Part shown: piece after piece, positions 10,006-22,966 of the stretch
How the letters are laid out: every line of letters begins with the position of its first letter
How positions within the stretch are numbered: the stretch's first letter is position 1
Origin: a virus
Reading direction: 5' to 3' (one strand)
DNA length: 22,966 nt
IMG/VR virus record: IMGVR_UViG_3300025070_000251
Span: 1 to 22,966 of that record
Made by a program: the position numbers and the translations under genes
Notes under the pieces: generated by a model
The model's database searches: none
What the model saw: the letters and a program-made list of their open reading frames with translations, nothing else
What the model was told of the DNA's origin: nothing

Positions 10006-12969
10006 ATGGACCAATTAGTATCACAGTTGATTCCTACTCAGCGCATCGGAAACGATGGGTTCAATTGGTGGGTGGGTCAAATTGAAGGAACTGCCACTGA
10101 CGAAAAAAATAACAAAGGTGGTTATCGTTTCAAAGTTCGTATTGTAGGAGATCATCCTGGTAAAAAGGAACTCCTTGATACGGCAGATTTGCCATGGGCA
10201 ACTGTGATGATGCCTGTCACAGTTCCATTCATTCCTGGTAATAGTGGTGGAGCACACCCACAACTAGAGATTGGTTGTTGGGTTATCGGTTTCTATATGG
10301 ATACCGAGAAACAAAAACCTATCATCATGGGGTCTATTGGACAGACTCCTGGTGCAACAAAAGTATTCAGTGAGAGAACACCAGATACTCCACCATTTGT
10401 TACAGCAATCCCACAACTTAATACACAGGCAGTTGGTCCACCAATCCAAAAAGATGAAGGTGGAAACTCTACTGGAAAAAACACAGCGACAGGTGGATTG
10501 CCAGATGGTAGTTGTGATGGGGATGGTAATTCTAGAGTTAATGTTCCACCTAAGAAGGTAGCACCACTAAAAAATAAAACAGCACAGGCAGAAGATTGGT
10601 GTCAGTCTAAAGCAGAAAAATGTGATAACGAAGATATGTCATCACAATTGACTGGTATCATGGGAGAATTCCTTGCTGCAGTTCAAAACAATGGTGGAAA
10701 CATTGGTACATATGTTGTCAACGAAGCGACAGGACAGTTGCAAAATGGTATTGGCATAGCAAGAAGTTATGTCAACAAAGCAATGATGGTTGTTAGCGAA
10801 TTTGTTGCTAGAGTAAAGGGGTTTATCATTGAAAAACTCAAAGCAGCAGTAAATGATTTAATTAAAGCATTACTAAGACCATCTGAAGATGGCAACTCAC
10901 TAACTCCAGTTACAGAATTTTTCAATAACATATTAGCAAACTTAGGATGTTCAATGGCAGATCTTGGTGATCGCCTTGCTAAGTTCCTAACAGACATTTT
11001 AATGAGTTATGTTCAACAGATTTATAAGTCTGTTGCTTGTCAGATTGATGCTCTTGTTAATGGTATCATGTCGAAGATTAATTCGTTGATGAATGATCTT
11101 CTTAGTCAAATTCTTGGACCACTTAGTGATATCTTAGGAGCAATTGCGGGACCACTAAACATTCTTGGTGGTGCAATTAATTTCGTCTTGAATCTTCTTG
11201 GAATTTCATGCTCTGGTCCTGATAGAACATGTAGCAAGTATAAACAAGTATGCACAAATGGTGGTCAAGAACTAGATGAAGAAGACGATTTTCTAGATCG
11301 GTTGTTATCAGATATTGATAATCTATTCCCAGCAACCGGTGCTGATTATACCCAGTATGTTTGTGATGATGCATACAAAGGAAATAGTTTAAAGTTTACT
11401 ACTGTTGGATTTACTGGTGGTGTTCCTAAGGGTGGCACTAGTGATATCGATGGCGGCGGCAGTGGTCCTAATAGAAAACTAGAAGACCAAGATCCTGATA
11501 ATAACGGCGTAAAACAAACCGAAAGAATTACATATGAAATTAAAAATGTAATTGTAGTCGAAGGAAATATTGCTAAATTTGTAGTCACTAGGAAAGGATT
11601 TATTTCGGTATCATCTTCTGTGACGTATAAAACATTAAAATATGCTGGTAGTGCCACAGAAGAAAAAGATTATATTCCAGTAAATGGTATCTTGGGGTTT
11701 GCTCCAGGAGAATCAGAAAAAACAATACAAGTTCAAACTCTGGTTGATTCTGAAAGAGAACAGGACGAAGACTTTAAAATTATTATACGAAAGAATACAC
11801 CAGCAAAGGGAAGTCCAGTACAGACAAGATTTATTAAGAACCTTGCTACAGGAACAATCACTGAAAAGAATGTAATAGAACCATCTGATCCATATACCGG
11901 ATCTCCTACAAATCCAATATATGATCTTCCTGATGTCTTTCCTCCTTCAGTAACTGATCCTACTGATGATGATGGTGATGGGGATACAACTGGACCAGAT
12001 GTAAATGATCCAAACCCTTCGCCAACAGATGATGATGGGGATGGAATTGATGATAATACTGGAGTCGGAATTGTAAAAACTGTTAGTGTTGCAGCAGATA
12101 GAGATACCTGTCCAGAAGGAGAATTTATTGTTTATACAGTAACAACAACAAACTATGTGAATGGAGAAATTTTATATTACACTCTTTCTGGCAATGATAT
12201 AACTTCTGATGATATCATTGGTGGAAATTTAGTTGGAAATGTTGTTGTTAATGACAACAAAAGTAAAATTACGGTAGGTATTGAAGAGGATGGTGTTGTA
12301 GAAGATGCAGAAATTCTTCGATTGACCATTAATGGAACCGGCGCATTTGATGATGTTGTAATCGTTACATCAGATGATTTAATCGATGATGGCGAAGGAG
12401 AAGGACCCGGAACTGATACAGGAACATTTGTTCCACCAACTGTTGTAGTCGAAGATGTTATCACAGATGAAAGCGGAGGAATAATTGATATTCCTGTATC
12501 TAATCCTGGTTCACCATGGGCAGAACCTCCATATGTCTTTATTACAGGAGAAGGTATTGGTGCTACTGCAACTGCTTTATTGGATAGAGATGGTTTCTTG
12601 ACAGAGATTCGTGTCAAATCTAATGGTTTTGGTTATAAGAAAAATCTTGCTGATGATAATGGCAAGAGATGTATTATCGATGCTCTTACTCTCATTAGAC
12701 CTGGAATTGATTATAAAGAACCACCCACTATCTACATTAATGGTAGAGATGATGTAGCAGAAGCAATTATTAATGAAGATGGATTTGTAATTGGTGCTCG
12801 TATTACTGACAGAATAACAACATATAAGGAATATCCTGAGATTATTGTAGTTGGTGGTGGTGGTTATGGTGCTAAACTATTACCGTCTCTAGCATGTCTA
12901 GATACAGATGCACTGTCTAGAATCGGTTCTACTAAGATTGGAACTGGTCGTTACGTTGATTGCCCATAA
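10006..12969 (+). CDS. 5: gp5-like baseplate hub protein with Calx-beta domains
   Basis: 987 aa. Residues about 15-130 form the gp5 N-terminal OB fold (WWVGQIEGTATDEKNNKGGYRFKVRIVGDHP...LPWATVMMPV...LEIGCWVIGFYMDTEKQKPIIMGSIGQTPG), which binds the gp27 hub. No T4-type lysozyme domain follows. Instead there is an amphipathic helical region (about 205-410), a Cys-rich stretch, a Calx-beta domain at about 507-620 (VVEGNIAKFVVTRKG...GSATEEKDYIPVNGILGFAPGESEKTIQV), two acidic DDDGDG calcium-binding-like loops (about 652-682), a second Calx-beta-like domain (about 690-790), and C-terminal Gly-rich beta repeats (PPYVFITGEGIGATATALLD, PPTIYINGRDDVAEAIINEDGFV). The latter modules recur in cyanophage structural proteins. 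The protein therefore looks like a gp5 hub whose enzymatic part was replaced by adhesive, calcium-binding modules. Its stop overlaps the start of the beta-helix gene. Confidence 0.8.
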   Translation: MDQLVSQLIPTQRIGNDGFNWWVGQIEGTATDEKNNKGGYRFKVRIVGDHPGKKELLDTADLPWATVMMPVTVPFIPGNSGGAHPQLEIGCWVIGFYMDTEKQKPIIMGSIGQTPGATKVFSERTPDTPPFVTAIPQLNTQAVGPPIQKDEGGNSTGKNTATGGLPDGSCDGDGNSRVNVPPKKVAPLKNKTAQAEDWCQSKAEKCDNEDMSSQLTGIMGEFLAAVQNNGGNIGTYVVNEATGQLQNGIGIARSYVNKAMMVVSEFVARVKGFIIEKLKAAVNDLIKALLRPSEDGNSLTPVTEFFNNILANLGCSMADLGDRLAKFLTDILMSYVQQIYKSVACQIDALVNGIMSKINSLMNDLLSQILGPLSDILGAIAGPLNILGGAINFVLNLLGISCSGPDRTCSKYKQVCTNGGQELDEEDDFLDRLLSDIDNLFPATGADYTQYVCDDAYKGNSLKFTTVGFTGGVPKGGTSDIDGGGSGPNRKLEDQDPDNNGVKQTERITYEIKNVIVVEGNIAKFVVTRKGFISVSSSVTYKTLKYAGSATEEKDYIPVNGILGFAPGESEKTIQVQTLVDSEREQDEDFKIIIRKNTPAKGSPVQTRFIKNLATGTITEKNVIEPSDPYTGSPTNPIYDLPDVFPPSVTDPTDDDGDGDTTGPDVNDPNPSPTDDDGDGIDDNTGVGIVKTVSVAADRDTCPEGEFIVYTVTTTNYVNGEILYYTLSGNDITSDDIIGGNLVGNVVVNDNKSKITVGIEEDGVVEDAEILRLTINGTGAFDDVVIVTSDDLIDDGEGEGPGTDTGTFVPPTVVVEDVITDESGGIIDIPVSNPGSPWAEPPYVFITGEGIGATATALLDRDGFLTEIRVKSNGFGYKKNLADDNGKRCIIDALTLIRPGIDYKEPPTIYINGRDDVAEAIINEDGFVIGARITDRITTYKEYPEIIVVGGGGYGAKLLPSLACLDTDALSRIGSTKIGTGRYVDCP

Positions 12970-14026: not shown

Positions 14027-14055
14027 TTGACGCATCCAGCGTCTTGTGCTATAAT
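14027..14055 (+). promoter_or_regulatory. sigma70-type promoter TTGACG-17-TATAAT
   Basis: -35 TTGACG (14027-14032), 17-nt spacer, exact -10 TATAAT (14050-14055). Only one base departs from consensus. It lies 82 nt upstream of the outer-membrane protein gene and should be read by host RNA polymerase, unlike the late boxes of the neighbouring structural genes. Confidence 0.8.
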
Positions 14056-14065
14056 AAACTCATGC

Positions 14066-14111
14066 GATCGGGAGTCGAACCGATCCATCATCTGCGGGTA
14101 TTCATTCCGCA
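14066..14111 (+). promoter_or_regulatory. structured 5' leader with two hairpins; antisense tRNA-half-like
   Basis: Hairpin 1: GATCGG (14066-14071) / CCGATC (14080-14085), 8-nt loop. Hairpin 2: TGCGG (14093-14097) / CCGCA (14107-14111), 9-nt loop. Both lie in the predicted leader of the outer-membrane gene. Read on the minus strand, the order is an anticodon-arm-like helix, a 7-nt link and a helix with loop TTCGACTC, like a T arm, but loop sizes are wrong and no D arm or acceptor stem is present. Confidence 0.5.
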
Positions 14112-14137
14112 AGTAAACAAAAAGGTAATTAAACAAA

Positions 14138-14509
14138 ATGATCAAATCTGTATTCGCAGCAACCGCTGCCCTGTCCGTATCCGCTGGTGCTGCTTTCGCA
14201 GGACCCTACGTCAACGTGGAAGCCAACTCCGGTTTCACTGGATCTAGCTACAATGGAACCGCAACTGACCTTCACGTTGGTTACGAAGGCGCTCTTGGCG
14301 AGAACGCATCATACTACGTCCAAGGTGGTGCTACTGTAGTCTCTCCTGACGGTGCTGAGAGCGACACCGTTCCTTCTGGTAAGGCAGGTCTTGGTATCGG
14401 TTTGACCGATGCTCTGGGCGCATATGGCGAAGTCTCCTTCGTTGGTAGTGGCGATAGCAACATCGATCGCGGTTATGGCACCAAGTTGGGTCTGAAGTAC
14501 AGCTTCTGA
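14138..14509 (+). CDS. small secreted outer-membrane beta-barrel protein
   Basis: 123 aa. Residues 1-21 form a clear signal peptide (MIKSVFAATAALSVSAGAAFA, cleavage after AFA). The mature part of 102 aa alternates polar and hydrophobic residues with Gly-rich turns (YVNVEANSG, DLHVGYEGAL, ASYYVQGGATVV, GKAGLGIGLTDALGAYGEVSFVG) and ends in GTKLGLKYSF, with the terminal Phe typical of BAM-recognised barrels. It resembles small OmpX/opacity-type barrels or porin-like proteins. The gene is bracketed by its own sigma70-type promoter, hairpin leader and strong terminator. Codons mostly end in C or in preferred T, and the gene is visibly GC-richer than its AT-rich neighbours, suggesting high expression or foreign origin. 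A weak AAGG lies 12 nt before the ATG. Function in infection (for example host-envelope alteration or superinfection exclusion) is a guess; a virion role is not excluded. Confidence 0.8.
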   Translation: MIKSVFAATAALSVSAGAAFAGPYVNVEANSGFTGSSYNGTATDLHVGYEGALGENASYYVQGGATVVSPDGAESDTVPSGKAGLGIGLTDALGAYGEVSFVGSGDSNIDRGYGTKLGLKYSF

Positions 14510-14520
14510 TAAATAACGTT

Positions 14521-14584
14521 GAGACCTTTCGTGCGGTCTCTACAAAAGTCGGAACACCCAAGGGGACCTTCGGGTCCCTTTTTT
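14521..14584 (+). terminator. tandem hairpins, second a strong Rho-independent terminator
   Basis: Hairpin GAGACC (14521-14526) / GGTCTC (14535-14540), then GGGACC (14563-14568), TTCG tetraloop, GGTCCC (14573-14578) followed by six T (14579-14584). The second is a textbook terminator closing the outer-membrane gene transcript. Confidence 0.9.
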
Positions 14585-16639: not shown

Positions 16640-16668
16640 TTGACAGCATTTAAGAAACCCAGTATAAT
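16640..16668 (+). promoter_or_regulatory. exact-consensus sigma70 promoter TTGACA-17-TATAAT
   Basis: TTGACA (16640-16645), 17-nt spacer, TATAAT (16663-16668): all 12 consensus bases and the optimal spacing. It starts right after the glutaredoxin-like stop and lies 26 nt before the ATG at 16695, so it should drive early, host-polymerase transcription of the 16695-17513 genes and perhaps the tRNAs. Confidence 0.88.
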
Positions 16669-16694: not shown

Positions 16695-16895
16695 ATGGCT
16701 TTAGGTAAACAAGTAGAGGAGAGTCTTTCAGAGGCTACAAGTAGTCTTCGCAACGCATTATCATATGCTGCTAGACAAGAACGACCGATTGTATGTAAAC
16801 AGATTGCTAATCTTATCTCAGAGATTGACAGTATCGGATCATTTGATGGTATTCTAGACAAATTAGAGGAGTTTTCCAATGAAAAAGACAGTTAA
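16695..16895 (+). CDS. small hypothetical protein (66 aa)
   Basis: MALGKQVEESLSEATSSLRN followed by ALSYAARQERPIVCKQIANLISEIDSIGSFDGILDKLEEFSNEKDS. Predicted all-helical, one Cys. A good ribosome site (AGAGGAG, 4 nt before ATG) and the consensus promoter immediately upstream make it the first gene of an early unit. No family recognised. Confidence 0.65.
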   Translation: MALGKQVEESLSEATSSLRNALSYAARQERPIVCKQIANLISEIDSIGSFDGILDKLEEFSNEKDS

Positions 16896-17016
16896 GAAGA
16901 TCGATAGACACGGACATGAAGAGACTTGGGAGTGGGAAGAGACTCCTGAACTGAAAGAGTTTATTAAGCGCCAGTCATTTACAAATCTGTCAGCACCCCC
17001 CACTCGTCCCACATAA
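16879..17016 (+). CDS. small hypothetical protein (45 aa)
   Basis: MKKTVKKIDRHGHEETWEWE, then ETPELKEFIKRQSFTNLSAPPTRPT. Basic start, Trp/Glu-rich middle. Overlaps the upstream gene by 17 bases and the oxygenase ATG by one base (TAATG). No family recognised. Confidence 0.55.
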   Translation: MKKTVKKIDRHGHEETWEWEETPELKEFIKRQSFTNLSAPPTRPT

Positions 17017-17513
17017 TGCAAGTTATTGATAACTTTTTGAATAAAGATCAATATCATGAATTGTATAATACCATGTTCTCTGCCGATTTTCCATGGTATT
17101 ATGCAAACAGTGTTATGCCCGAAGGTCTAGTAACATGTAAAACGTTTGACAACTATCAATGGGGTCATTCTTTTTATAGAGAGTATGCTTTTCAGAGTCA
17201 ACATGCTATAATACTTCTTCCTATAATTAAAAAGTTAGATCCTGCTGCTATTGTTAGAATCAAAGGGTTAATGCTCTCTAGAACTGAGGAGAATGTAGAG
17301 CATGGAATGCACGAAGACAATACGTTTAGTACAACCAATGCTCTATATTATCTTAATACTAATAATGGATACACTAGATTTGAAAATGGTAAAAAGGTTG
17401 ACAGTGTTGCCAATCGTATGCTAATATTCCCTAGTGGGATCAAACACACAGGAGCAACATGCACAGATCAAAAAGTGAGATGTGCCATTAACTTCAATTA
17501 CTATTGTAAGTAG
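17016..17513 (+). CDS. 2OG-Fe(II) oxygenase (prolyl 4-hydroxylase-like)
   Basis: 165 aa. Members use 2-oxoglutarate, oxygen and Fe(II) to hydroxylate proteins, nucleic acids or small molecules; the substrate here is unknown. The metal triad is visible as H99-E-D101 (HEDN) and H144 (GIKHTGA), with R155 (VRCAINFNYY) as the 2OG carboxylate ligand. Between them LYYLNTNNGYTRFENGKKV and RMLIFPSG have the family's core strands (-YLN-N-GYT-F--G--V-------MLIFPS---H-G). Such oxygenases are common in cyanomyovirus genomes. The start is set by the TAATG overlap. The tRNA group begins 2 nt after the stop. Confidence 0.88.
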   Translation: MQVIDNFLNKDQYHELYNTMFSADFPWYYANSVMPEGLVTCKTFDNYQWGHSFYREYAFQSQHAIILLPIIKKLDPAAIVRIKGLMLSRTEENVEHGMHEDNTFSTTNALYYLNTNNGYTRFENGKKVDSVANRMLIFPSGIKHTGATCTDQKVRCAINFNYYCK

Positions 17514-18871: not shown

Positions 18872-21800
18872 ATGCCTTTAACACGTCTGGATAACCTTAT
18901 CAGCAGCAAAACTGGTAAGTATCTTTATGTTTCTCCTGATGATTTCAACGCTACAGATGCGTTATCGAATAGAGGTAACTCACCTGTAACACCATTCAAG
19001 AGCATCCAGCGTGCTTTTCTAGAGATTGCAAGATACTCGTATCTTCCTGGATTTGGTAATGACAGGTTTGACCAGTTCAGCATTATGCTGATGCCTGGTA
19101 TCCATTACATTGATAACCGTCCTGGTCTTGTAGATACTAGTGGTATCTCTGCGTTTGGTTTTGATCAAGCAAATAACGAGTGGACAGACAATTCCATTCT
19201 TGATATCTCTAATCCTGATAACGTACTATACAAGTATAATAACACTGAGGGTGGTGCTATCATCCCTAGGGGTTCATCTCTGGTAGGTTATGATCTTCGC
19301 CGTACTGTTGTTCGTCCTCTATATGTTCCTGACCCTGCATCAGTAACTGTTCCTCGTTCTGCTATTTTTAATGTAACAGGTGGTTGTTATTTCTGGCAGT
19401 TCACTATCAAAGATGGTCAGACTACTGCTGAGTCTCCTCTCTTTAATACTGTAGAGGGAACTGGTGAGGTATACTACGATCCTTATGATTTCACTAGAAA
19501 AACTGCTCCTAACTATTCTCACCATAAATTAACTGTATTTGAATACGCAGACACAGAAGAGTTGTCTCTATTCTACAGAAAGATTGCTAAAGGTTTCTCT
19601 GATTATCAACCAACAATTGATGATCCTGGTGAGTTTGACTTTAGAATTCAGGAGAACCGTATTGTTGGTCCTCTATCTGACTCTAGAGTTATTGAGTCAT
19701 TAACACTTAATGATGCTACAACTATTCCTAGTATTGCTGCATCAACATCTAAAATTGAAGTAACAACTAAGGTAGACCACGGATACTTTGCTGGTCAGTT
19801 TGTTGCTATTTCCAATACAAATATCGATAGTGTTTTGGAAGGTATCTTCCCAATCATTGATATTGATCAAAATGATCCACGTAAGTTTACTTACGAAGTT
19901 GCTGAAGTTGTCAGCGCAATTGGTACAGGTATTGCTTCGGGTCAAACTGTTAGTGTAGATACTACTCCAGCACTCGGTCAGAACGCTCAGACGCTCGCTG
20001 AAGTTGATAGTGTAGAGTCTGCCTCTCCATATGTCTTTAACTGCTCTATCCGCTCTACGTGGGGTATTTGTGGCATCTGGGCAAACGGTCTTAAGGCGAC
20101 TGGCTTTAAGTCAATGGTCATAGCTCAATATACGGGCGTTTCGCTTCAGAAGGATGACAGAGCATTCATCCGTTATGATGAGTATTCTAACACCTGGAAC
20201 CAAGCATCACTAACTGATGCTTTTGCGACTGTTCCTTATCACGCTAAAGGTGATTCTTATTGGAAGGATGAATGGAGAAACTTCCACGTTCGTGCTTCGG
20301 AAGATGCGTTCATCCAGAACGTTTCTATCTTCGCTGTTGGTTTCGCTGATCACTTCCTGATGGAAAGTGGTGGTGATATGTCGATCACCAACTCGAACTC
20401 TAACTTTGGTAACACATCTCTACATGCTATTGGTTTCAAAGGATTTGCCTTTAACCAAGATAAGGGTGGTTTCATTACTGATATCATTCCACCAGAAGCA
20501 GTTGATAGTGGTGCTGCTAATATCAAGAAAACTCAATACTATACTATTGATATTTCTGGAACAACTCAAGATACTAATAACTATACTAAATTATTCCTTG
20601 GTAGTGAAGACATTACTAGTCCCCTAGATCGCCCTGCCGTATCTATTGGCGGATATAGACTTGGTTCTAAGTCTGGGGAAAAACTATATGTTAGACTAGA
20701 TCCAGCAGTTGCTGGTGGAACTGAAGAGTTTAACGCAACTCTAGAACCAACTGGATTTGTTAAGTATATTGCTGCTCCTCAAATTCTTAATCCTTCTGGA
20801 TTCGCTATCAACAACATCTATGCAGATGCTGCTAACTTAATTGAAAGCAACCGTAAGATGATCCAAGAGGAAGTCTTTGGATATATCATTGAGAAGTATC
20901 CAAGACTTCAGGATATTTCTTATGTTAATCCTGGAAGAGATCCTAATGCGAATCGTTATTTCGATGCTCGCAATCTAATTATTGCTAATAGACAGAATAT
21001 CATCAACGCGACTATACAGTCTTTGGGAGTCTTTAGTCCTGGTTCTCCTGTTAGTGTTAACGATATTGGTGTTATTGTTGATGCCGTAGCGGAAGATTTA
21101 AGAGACGGTGGTAACTATAATACAGTTGCTGCAGTACAAGGATTCTTTGCTAATGATACAGCACTTACTGGACTGTTAGTTGGTCAAGAAGAAAATCTAC
21201 TTTGGGCATTTAGAAGAGCTCGCGATCTATGTAAGCAAGCAGTTGCTAATTTACTAAGTGTAAAAGCAAATCTATATGATCCTGTTCCTTTCGCAGACAG
21301 TCCTTATAATTTCTATAGTAATCTTCCATGTGGCAGTATTACTTCTGGTAAGACAGGATCTCAAGCAGAGAATGACGGAGACACTACAAATGGTGTCACT
21401 ATTGATCTAGCACAGAAAATTGATCCTGCTGCTAGGTATAGAGACACATACAATTTAATTACAGAAAACAGAGATTATATTCTTGATAATGCTCTTGCTG
21501 AAATTGCTGTTTATGATGGAGCTCCATTCTTCTCCTTCCCTGGAGATCCTGCTGAGACTGCTAGATCTAGATTTAAGACAGCATATCGTTTAATCAGAAG
21601 AAACAAAGCAGATGCCCAAGACTATGCTATTGGTCAGGTCTCTGTTTTATATCCATCGTTCGTCTTCCCTGGTGGATCTGATAAGTGTAAGAGAGATATT
21701 GGATACTTCATCGATGCTGTTGCGATGGATATTTTCCTTGGTGGTAACTTATGGAGCAGTACTTTCATCAACAAATATTTCTCTGGCACCGGTCAGTGGA

Positions 21801-22966
21801 TCACTGGTGGATTGCAAGGTGAAGAACTACAAAGCATTGCCGCATATAATGCTGCTAGAGATTATCTGCAGGATGCTGTATCTAATCAACTAACTTCTGG
21901 ATATCAAGATCTTACAGTTTCTCCTGGTGAATCAATATATGGAGATGGAAATGGAGATGTTGTTAATACTGACACCACTGCTTGTGCTGACGTACAAAAT
22001 GCCATTTCGTCTCTAACATCAATTGTAACTCAATGTATTAGTGATGGTAATAATGATAGTATTACTGATTCAAATAACGCAAACTATGTTGTTCCTACAC
22101 AAAGAGATTTACTAACAGGTGCGAGTAAGTGTAGAAGAGATATCGGACATATTGTTGATGCCATAAGACAAGATCTTTGGTTTGGTGGTAATGCTTATTC
22201 CATCGCGATGGCGAAAACATATTTCAATCGCTTTGGTGGACCAATTAGTACTGGTCTTTCTGGAGAAGAATCACCATCTATCACAGCATTTAAGAGAGCC
22301 GCTGATGCTATTAACTTAGCAATCAACAACCAACTATACTATAAAGATTCTACAATTACGCTTGATCAAGTAGGAGATCCTCCTATTGTATCCGATATGA
22401 ATGCGGATGCTTATGATCTTGTATTAGCAAATAAGAAGTTTATTGCTAAGCAAGCATATGAAACAATGAAGGAATCATATCCTTCATACACTCCTCAGGC
22501 AGATAATACTGAGCAAGACTGTTTAGATGATGTCTATAACGTCTTAGAAGAAGTTATGTATGATGTTAAGTTTGGCGGAAATGCTAAAACTTATGATTCT
22601 GCAGAGATTTACACTACCAATGTAATGCCTTACTTTGGTTTAAGTAAGAGAAGAAAGCAATTTACTCCTAGTACTGTATCTTACGATCCAGCAACAGGTT
22701 TATCTGTGTTCACTATTCCTGGTCATGATATGACACAAGGTGGATACATTAGAGTTGATACTGGAAGTGTCATCTTTACGTGTACTATGGATGGCAACCA
22801 GACACAACATGCTTCACCAAGTGCTGATGATCCTTATGCTGGTCAGTGGATGGTAATCACAGAAGCAGATGCTTCTACTATAACTGTCAATGTTGGTCCT
22901 TCTGGCGCTAATGAGAGTTTCAATCCAACCAATGCAGTATACAACTCTACGACTGGTGATATGGAA
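18872..22966 (+). CDS. giant virion structural protein, N-terminal 1365 residues (3' end outside window)
   Basis: Open from ATG 18872 to the last base with no stop, so at least 1365 aa. The N-terminus (MPLTRLDNLISSKTGKYLYV...GNSPVTPFKSIQRAFLEIARYSY...FSIMLMPGIHYIDNRPG) has the look of phage fibre/beta-helix proteins: a P-KSIQ-A--E pattern followed by an I-L-PG-Y strand. The C-terminal half of the visible part holds repeated units: helices of the type Y-LI--N---I---A (21443, 21588 and 22418 regions) each followed by a C-RDIG-IVDA---D---GGN-----------YF motif (four copies, 21062-22636). A large protein of this type is common in cyanomyoviruses, where it is annotated only as structural; a tail fibre or baseplate appendage role is inferred. 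It is driven by the TATAAATA box 40 nt upstream. Confidence 0.85.
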   Translation, partial: MPLTRLDNLISSKTGKYLYVSPDDFNATDALSNRGNSPVTPFKSIQRAFLEIARYSYLPGFGNDRFDQFSIMLMPGIHYIDNRPGLVDTSGISAFGFDQANNEWTDNSILDISNPDNVLYKYNNTEGGAIIPRGSSLVGYDLRRTVVRPLYVPDPASVTVPRSAIFNVTGGCYFWQFTIKDGQTTAESPLFNTVEGTGEVYYDPYDFTRKTAPNYSHHKLTVFEYADTEELSLFYRKIAKGFSDYQPTIDDPGEFDFRIQENRIVGPLSDSRVIESLTLNDATTIPSIAASTSKIEVTTKVDHGYFAGQFVAISNTNIDSVLEGIFPIIDIDQNDPRKFTYEVAEVVSAIGTGIASGQTVSVDTTPALGQNAQTLAEVDSVESASPYVFNCSIRSTWGICGIWANGLKATGFKSMVIAQYTGVSLQKDDRAFIRYDEYSNTWNQASLTDAFATVPYHAKGDSYWKDEWRNFHVRASEDAFIQNVSIFAVGFADHFLMESGGDMSITNSNSNFGNTSLHAIGFKGFAFNQDKGGFITDIIPPEAVDSGAANIKKTQYYTIDISGTTQDTNNYTKLFLGSEDITSPLDRPAVSIGGYRLGSKSGEKLYVRLDPAVAGGTEEFNATLEPTGFVKYIAAPQILNPSGFAINNIYADAANLIESNRKMIQEEVFGYIIEKYPRLQDISYVNPGRDPNANRYFDARNLIIANRQNIINATIQSLGVFSPGSPVSVNDIGVIVDAVAEDLRDGGNYNTVAAVQGFFANDTALTGLLVGQEENLLWAFRRARDLCKQAVANLLSVKANLYDPVPFADSPYNFYSNLPCGSITSGKTGSQAENDGDTTNGVTIDLAQKIDPAARYRDTYNLITENRDYILDNALAEIAVYDGAPFFSFPGDPAETARSRFKTAYRLIRRNKADAQDYAIGQVSVLYPSFVFPGGSDKCKRDIGYFIDAVAMDIFLGGNLWSSTFINKYFSGTGQWITGGLQGEELQSIAAYNAARDYLQDAVSNQLTSGYQDLTVSPGESIYGDGNGDVVNTDTTACADVQNAISSLTSIVTQCISDGNNDSITDSNNANYVVPTQRDLLTGASKCRRDIGHIVDAIRQDLWFGGNAYSIAMAKTYFNRFGGPISTGLSGEESPSITAFKRAADAINLAINNQLYYKDSTITLDQVGDPPIVSDMNADAYDLVLANKKFIAKQAYETMKESYPSYTPQADNTEQDCLDDVYNVLEEVMYDVKFGGNAKTYDSAEIYTTNVMPYFGLSKRRKQFTPSTVSYDPATGLSVFTIPGHDMTQGGYIRVDTGSVIFTCTMDGNQTQHASPSADDPYAGQWMVITEADASTITVNVGPSGANESFNPTNAVYNSTTGDME
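21062..22636 (+). repeat. four diverged protein repeats (D-IG-IVDA--D---GGN)
   Basis: Copies at 21062-21148 (DIGVIVDAVAEDLRDGGN), 21686-21781 (CKRDIGYFIDAVAMDIFLGGN), 22130-22225 (CRRDIGHIVDAIRQDLWFGGN) and 22520-22636 (CLDDVYNVLEEVMYDVKFGGN). Three begin with Cys; all keep D at the third-fourth position, the GGN turn and a terminal aromatic YF/FF. They are diverged at DNA level, so duplication is old. The array may continue past the window. Confidence 0.8.

Follow-up and report, generated by a model that had tools for sequence, protein, structure and literature searches.

Cyanophages rank with the most abundant viruses of the ocean, and the T4-like cyanophages among them are lytic. In Escherichia coli, the ompA mRNA is a monocistronic message for an abundant outer-membrane protein and carries stabilizing hairpins at its extreme 5′ end, while the phage proteins T5 Llp and T1 Cor act on FhuA. 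Llp is a small exported protein that is made early and acts at the host outer membrane (PMC9586334). Structured RNAs, namely manA, wcaG, and PhotoRC-II, have been described in the 5′ regions of T4-like cyanophage genes (PMC2864571), and cyanophages raise host RNase E in infection (PMC9692554). The common cyanophage genes of unknown function include the Phage_OMP gene, and here we describe a unit in which one member of this family is combined with a conserved RNA leader.

The window, by which we mean the whole 22,966-base virus fragment that was analyzed, is the baseplate region of a T4-like cyanophage. Its genes, identified by PHROGs and Pfam matches, encode hub and tail-lysozyme proteins, a T4 baseplate protein, and tail proteins, and the nearest named records are the Synechococcus phages ACG-2014i, ACG-2014e, and S-CAM4. 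Within this region lies a monocistronic unit composed of a σ70 promoter, a two-hairpin leader, a gene for a secreted 123-aa protein, and a strong terminator, with the following features.

14,027–14,055, plus strand: σ70-type promoter TTGACG-17-TATAAT with extended −10 (TGC 5′ of TATAAT), an 11/12 consensus match
14,060–14,115, plus strand: conserved structured RNA leader, from covariance model R1 (50.2 bits), covariation, and fold
14,062–14,088, plus strand: hairpin 1 of the leader, with loop GAGUCGAA including the conserved GUCGA, from fold and alignment
14,089–14,092, plus strand: unpaired invariant linker CAUC, from fold and alignment
14,093–14,111, plus strand: hairpin 2 of the leader (UGCGGG...UCCGCA), from covariation and fold
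14,138–14,509, plus strand: gene for Phage_OMP paralogue A, 123 aa (PF24653, phrog_417), from profile matches
14,138–14,200, plus strand: signal peptide MIKSVFAATAALSVSAGAAFA, with cleavage inferred before GPYVNVE from sequence inspection and the conserved A-x-A-G-P-Y
14,201–14,506, plus strand: mature six-stranded β domain with C-terminal Phe, from an AlphaFold2 model (pLDDT 93.6, pTM 0.76)
14,521–14,540, plus strand: 3′UTR hairpin (z −3.4)
14,560–14,584, plus strand: intrinsic terminator GGGGACC-UUCG-GGUCCC with U-run, from fold and comparative tally

Several other loci of the window deserve mention. A perfect 12/12 σ70 promoter (TTGACA-17-TATAAT; 16,640–16,668), which outscores the unit's own promoter, lies just 5′ of a 66-aa ORF (16,695–16,895). 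The 165-aa protein encoded at 17,016–17,513 carries the PHROGs label DNA endonuclease V (phrog_274), its best Pfam match is a 2OG-Fe(II) oxygenase just below cutoff, and the PHROGs label is possibly wrong. A baseplate hub/tail lysozyme-like protein (10,006–12,969) harbors a Calx-beta domain (PF03160, 49.3 bits), and an open-ended ORF of at least 1,365 aa (18,872–22,966), probably a large structural protein, leaves the window at its right edge.

Every element that the initial annotation had noted in the unit is present, from the near-consensus promoter, the hairpin leader, and the signal peptide with C-terminal Phe to the GC-rich, C-ending codons and the strong terminator. Such a terminator follows only one of the 17 plus-strand window genes tested, that of the cassette, and one is found downstream of 90% of 150 unique homologous (paralogue A) genes, compared with 0% in shuffles. 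Because the layout recurs in this manner, with a structured leader also located upstream of the genes of essentially all close relatives, it lies far beyond chance. The 3′UTR hairpin at 14,521–14,540 has no counterpart in the 3′ region of phage S-TIM4. The codons of the cassette gene are indeed unlike those of its neighbors: GC3 is 0.496 versus 0.275 ± 0.069 in 20 other window genes, and third-position C is 0.398 versus 0.135 ± 0.033 in the same set. The initial annotation took this bias as a sign of foreign cargo. However, across ten genomes third-position C follows, and is equal to, that of the major capsid gene gp23, so the bias is a high-expression signature and does not point to alien DNA.

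The window leader has a predicted folding energy of −19.1 kcal/mol (z −2.1 to −2.5 when taken alone). Covariance model R1, built from 47 distinct aligned leaders with the window's own included, scores it at 50.2 bits with an E value of 3e-12, E values of the model being approximate. Across the 47 distinct sequences, two-sided compensatory changes are observed in 10 of the 12 leader pairs. The alignment has 94.3% of its cells paired, compared with 75.3% when shuffled, and a covariation score of 0.610, compared with 0.246 for shuffles, none of 500 of which reaches it; sliding the pairing partners yields at most 0.148. RNAalifold, unaided, recovers the same two hairpins. The CAUC linker is invariant across the aligned leaders and the GUCGA of the hairpin-1 loop is near-invariant, with the string GUCGR in 62 of 65, whereas the stem bases of hairpin 1 are variable. 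Because stem changes compensate while unpaired bases are held invariant, comparative sequence analysis identifies the leader as a real RNA element. In the window fold, neither hairpin includes the SD-like AAGG, and an alternative fold that would mask it is not evident. That the linker pairs with the start codon was considered and rejected, as the pairs −1:+4 and −2:+5 show no covariation.

No Rfam 15 family scored above gathering for the window leader or in 13 relatives, in a search whose positive control, wcaG, was recovered from these data. A known riboswitch or cyanophage motif was set aside, the window leader having no Rfam match even at an E value of 10. The resemblance of the leader to an antisense T-arm (GGGAGTCGAACC) raised the possibility of a tRNA remnant, which is disfavored because neither ARAGORN nor Rfam reports a tRNA at this site and because the stem varies freely among relatives. 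In whole-genome searches with R1, 17 of 20 phage records each contained a single strong match, as did Syn9 (172,757–172,811, at gp222), Syn19, S-TIM4 (65.8 bits), S-SZBM1, and P-SSM7. The R1 search found no leader in two records that bear a family member, 9515-10a and ACG-2014f, and no strong match in S-PM2d. A DNA-pattern scan, independent of the protein and favoring close relatives, gave at least 80 matches. Of the 80 listed, 74 have the gene directly downstream; two of the others are true elements at a fragment end and four are chance matches lacking a model score. By these searches, the leader is essentially a single-copy element of phage genomes, restricted to the Phage_OMP gene. One locus (L128) contains two leader copies 1.2 kb apart (326–379 and 1,522–1,576), which suggests tandem copies of the cassette. 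In two loci, a wcaG RNA (RF01761) lies ∼150–200 nt upstream of the leader on the same strand (L010, 2,188–2,287; the L061 record, G006:C1:13,023–13,120).

Comparison of upstream regions from 140 unique homologous loci revealed a σ70 promoter matching at least 10/12 in 62 and a late-type promoter, defined by a TATAAATA-like motif, in 90, where random windows gave ∼3% for each. Many of these regions harbor both types, often overlapping, and in Syn9 and Syn19 they are arranged in tandem. Together with its own promoter and terminator, this tally bears out the view of the unit as self-contained and independently expressed. The further proposal of early expression agrees with the σ70 promoters of many loci, but "early only" is too narrow given the late or combined promoters of many relatives. 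In 19 of 23 loci with a σ70 promoter alone, hairpin 1 begins 5–10 nt past the −10 element. In late-promoter loci an additional hairpin begins 1–6 nt past TATAAATA, with a median z of −3.5 compared with −0.14 at other TATAAATA sites. The spacing of hairpins to the predicted promoters would fit a 5′-terminal position. The transcript is thus predicted to begin with a hairpin whatever the promoter type, and for the window we infer a start near 14,061–14,062. The resulting message would be short and structured at both ends, by the 5′ hairpin and by the terminator. The spacer of the window promoter also contains an inverted repeat, GACGC-ATCCA-GCGTC (14,027–14,044), and some relatives carry different inverted repeats at the same place; a role as an operator is possible.

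The 123-aa product matches Pfam PF24653 (Phage_OMP) over its full length (residues 1–123 of 123; 170.7 bits against a cutoff of 27) and matches phrog_417, which is of unknown function. Homologues are found in 463 phage records, nearly all from cyanophages. The Pfam DUF680 model gives no match to the protein at E ≤ 1, and the GenBank name DUF680 is a mislabel for the family that current Pfam does not support. A match to the NCBIfam model JUQZ_fam_ocin is subthreshold (21.6 bits versus 40). The signal peptide ends in AFA, followed by GPY, and the C terminus reads GLKYSF. AlphaFold2, given the mature domain and an alignment of 92 sequences, predicts six antiparallel strands, as did a shallower first model; the eight-strand barrel anticipated in the initial annotation is predicted by neither model, the deeper of which has a pLDDT of 93.6. 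The best structural neighbors are nonetheless small outer-membrane barrels: OprF (Z 10.1; rmsd 3.4 over 97 aligned residues), OmpA (9.6), OmpW (9.2), and OmpX (9.0). A designed ten-strand barrel superposes over 88 residues at 1.7 Å, and unrelated avidin-type barrels score a Z of ∼7, below OprF and OmpA. Foldseek E values for the model are above 0.01, and no solved structure was matched by sequence. Polarity alternates in all six strands, in three of them beyond the 95% level of shuffles. With the Pfam assignment and these neighbors, the model makes an outer-membrane-type β domain, as had been proposed, well supported. We know of no natural monomeric outer-membrane barrel with as few as six strands, and because six are too few for the natural monomeric barrels known, the model may represent part of an oligomer or, alternatively, a soluble periplasmic protein.

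The Phage_OMP family contains two paralogues, A (PYVNVE, the window type) and B (PYVESKHEFKG), which are ∼31–34% identical and both belong to PF24653. They are often adjacent, in the order A-B-pstS. B is followed directly by pstS in 74 of the 79 loci listed, whereas A usually lies beside nrdC or elsewhere, not beside pstS. The RNA leader is located upstream of A and never directly upstream of B, and terminators are found after 90% of A genes versus 3.6% of B genes. When we searched for tandem Pho boxes (CTTAACCT-3-CTTAACCT, score at least 12/16), these were found upstream of B in 46% of loci compared with 0.9% in shuffled sequence, but upstream of A in 0.8% compared with 0.7%, the best score in the window being 10/16. 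This shuffle-level frequency rules out the Pho box as a regulator of A. A CTTAACC string in late-promoter loci, which resembles a Pho half-site, in fact forms the 5′ side of a hairpin predicted in the transcript. The border between the paralogues is imperfect, as the S-SZBM1 member has the leader yet begins GPYVESK.

Both paralogues are annotated as T4-GC 241 and DUF680, and they are treated as one in the literature. A phosphate role fits B because the Pho boxes and the pstS neighbor are associated with B and not with A, and the published phosphate link ("PhCOG173/DUF680") likewise fits B. S-PM2d169, the top upregulated low-phosphate gene of S-PM2 (PMC10976474), was considered and set aside, as it is T4-GC 355 and not of the Phage_OMP family. 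In S-TIM4, loss of ORF224 reached about 100% in a sweep confined to Synechococcus WH8102 and not seen on Prochlorococcus (PMC6224464). ORF224 is an A-type gene with the leader, and the authors' nutrient-response reading of it should be revisited. Separating A, with its leader, capsid-like expression signature, and absence of a Pho box, from B corrects this conflation in the literature and shows which of the two genes the published S-TIM4 selection concerns.

The position of the unit varies: in the window it lies in the baseplate region, in many phages it adjoins nrdC, and in others it precedes B-pstS. In the T7-like podovirus 9515-10a the gene (L083, 2,441–2,797) adjoins psbA and hli, without the leader. 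In seven loci (L434 and L436–L441), the hub gene and the phrog_507 gene are separated by only 28–200 bp with no insert, while in other contigs a Phage_OMP family gene is found at the same junction; the family is absent from all seven empty-site contigs, which are fragments. This empty site in relatives and the varied genome positions support gain and loss of the unit as a cassette. The idea of moron cargo thus holds as regards the unit's own promoter and terminator and the empty site, but not as regards composition, which equals that of gp23, or the gene's wide distribution in cyanophages. Cellular homologues are limited to three matches among genome contigs, all of them MAG contigs of 4.6–24 kb (L114, L115, and L116, labeled Rhodobacteraceae, Lewinella, and Dehalococcoidia). 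The leader is present in two of the three MAG records that hold the phage gene, and the contigs are probably misbinned cyanophage DNA.

The explanation we favor, and hold to be slightly on the probable side, is that the unit produces a phage outer-membrane protein, at a high level and from early to late in infection, from an mRNA that is stabilized or controlled by its 5′-terminal structured leader. Host RNA polymerase would transcribe the unit from the σ70 promoter, and the late promoter added to or overlapping it in many relatives would probably extend its activity from the early into the late phase. Its mRNA would start within a few bases of the leader, so that hairpin 1 with its GUCGA loop, the CAUC linker, and hairpin 2 follow in turn. 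The leader would most likely stabilize the message, its 5′-terminal hairpin blocking attack of the RNase E/RppH type, and such protection gains plausibility from the rise in host RNase E that cyanophages cause (PMC9692554). A trans factor may bind the invariant unpaired bases and tune stability or translation. The codon-optimized precursor would be exported via its signal peptide, and the protein, a small barrel-like form of six strands that perhaps closes only as an oligomer, would insert in the outer membrane, where it may alter the surface or permeability of the infected cell. Any benefit would depend on the host, since one published experiment saw the gene kept on Prochlorococcus but lost on Synechococcus WH8102. 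Against this explanation stand the two family-bearing phage records without a leader and one virion proteome in which a homologue was detected (PMC9146016), and against an outer-membrane monomer stand the six strands and the avidin-type barrels at Z ∼7. A more specific version, which we put forward tentatively and consider rather unlikely as a whole, is that the leader belongs to a previously undescribed class of cis-acting phage RNAs that serve a single gene family, and that a host or phage factor reads GUCGA and CAUC to set the dose of the outer-membrane protein throughout infection, the protein being a six-stranded unit that forms a barrel only as an oligomer.

Structured leaders also serve as riboswitches or translational operators, and the conserved loop and linker bases exceed what simple stabilization needs. 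The leader could therefore switch translation, either as a riboswitch that senses a ligand or as an operator bound by a phage or host RNA-binding protein or an sRNA, with stability secondary; outer-membrane mRNAs are common regulatory targets. We give this reading serious weight but think it probably does not hold, as the SD-like AAGG lies clear of the hairpins, the linker–start codon pairing lacks covariation, and metabolite riboswitches are seldom tied to a single gene. That the leader is instead a DNA-level exchange site moving the cassette between phages, rather than a working RNA, would account for the different genome positions and the empty site, but compensating stems with conserved unpaired loop bases are the signature of an RNA and no second strong copy was found elsewhere in the genomes searched with R1, making this exceedingly improbable. 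The leader is a directly testable RNA element and, if it does stabilize or control the message, offers a handle on how selected cyanophage messages survive raised host RNase E.

As regards the protein, superinfection exclusion or receptor masking, in which the protein, small and lodged in the outer membrane, would cover or reshape a phage receptor early in infection, would suit the early-type promoters, the secretion signal, the outer-membrane-type fold, and the high-expression codons, and it has a precedent in Llp (PMC9586334). Passage of a single phage on naive hosts in the laboratory gives no reward for exclusion, and the loss in S-TIM4 (PMC6224464) could fit; yet the gene was lost on WH8102 only and not on two Prochlorococcus hosts passaged alike, which exclusion alone does not predict. 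As Llp and Cor are lipoproteins and not β-barrels and no receptor or partner is known, we regard exclusion as unlikely. Less likely again is a nutrient channel by which phosphate or other solutes would cross the outer membrane, as the label "DUF680/PhCOG173, phosphate limitation" would imply. The Pho boxes and pstS neighbor of B, a member of the same Pfam family, speak for it, but A has no Pho box, is usually not beside pstS, and ends in its own terminator, and a monomer of six strands leaves no obvious pore. A minor virion protein packed in or on the particle is highly improbable. The initial annotation had set detection in the virion against a membrane role, and the proteomes divide: S-SZBM1_90 (122 aa, 2 peptides) was detected in CsCl-purified particles (PMC9146016), and in S-SZBM1 the leader precedes a family member of 122 aa, whereas ORF224 was not found in S-TIM4 particles and its loss leaves the phage viable (PMC6224464). 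The signal peptide and the often early promoters also argue against packaging, and outer-membrane vesicles could copurify with particles.

Comparison with described systems places the unit as follows. The window protein is a full-length member of PF24653 Phage_OMP/phrog_417 (GenBank DUF680, Syn9 gp222, T4-GC 241), a family name that covers the barrel only; none of the entries and papers examined describes the leader, the monocistronic layout, or the split into A and B. Paralogue B shares the Pfam family but differs in its tandem Pho boxes, the lack of a leader directly upstream, the near absence of a terminator, and an operon-like arrangement with pstS. OmpA, OmpX, OprF, and OmpW have a similar fold by Z score, but their eight-strand count is not matched by the window protein. 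Llp of T5 and Cor of T1-like phages, compared by description only, share its small, exported, outer-membrane-acting nature but are lipoproteins. Like manA, wcaG, and PhotoRC-II, the leader is a structured RNA located 5′ of a T4-like cyanophage gene; unlike them, it has no Rfam match and is restricted to one gene. The closest parallel in layout is the E. coli ompA mRNA, with which the unit shares an outer-membrane-type product and a monocistronic message and, going by its predicted promoters, would also share a hairpin at the extreme 5′ end. The leader sequences are unrelated, and the cyanophage leader, whose stabilizing role is proposed by analogy with ompA, is distinguished by its invariant loop and linker bases and its covarying stems.
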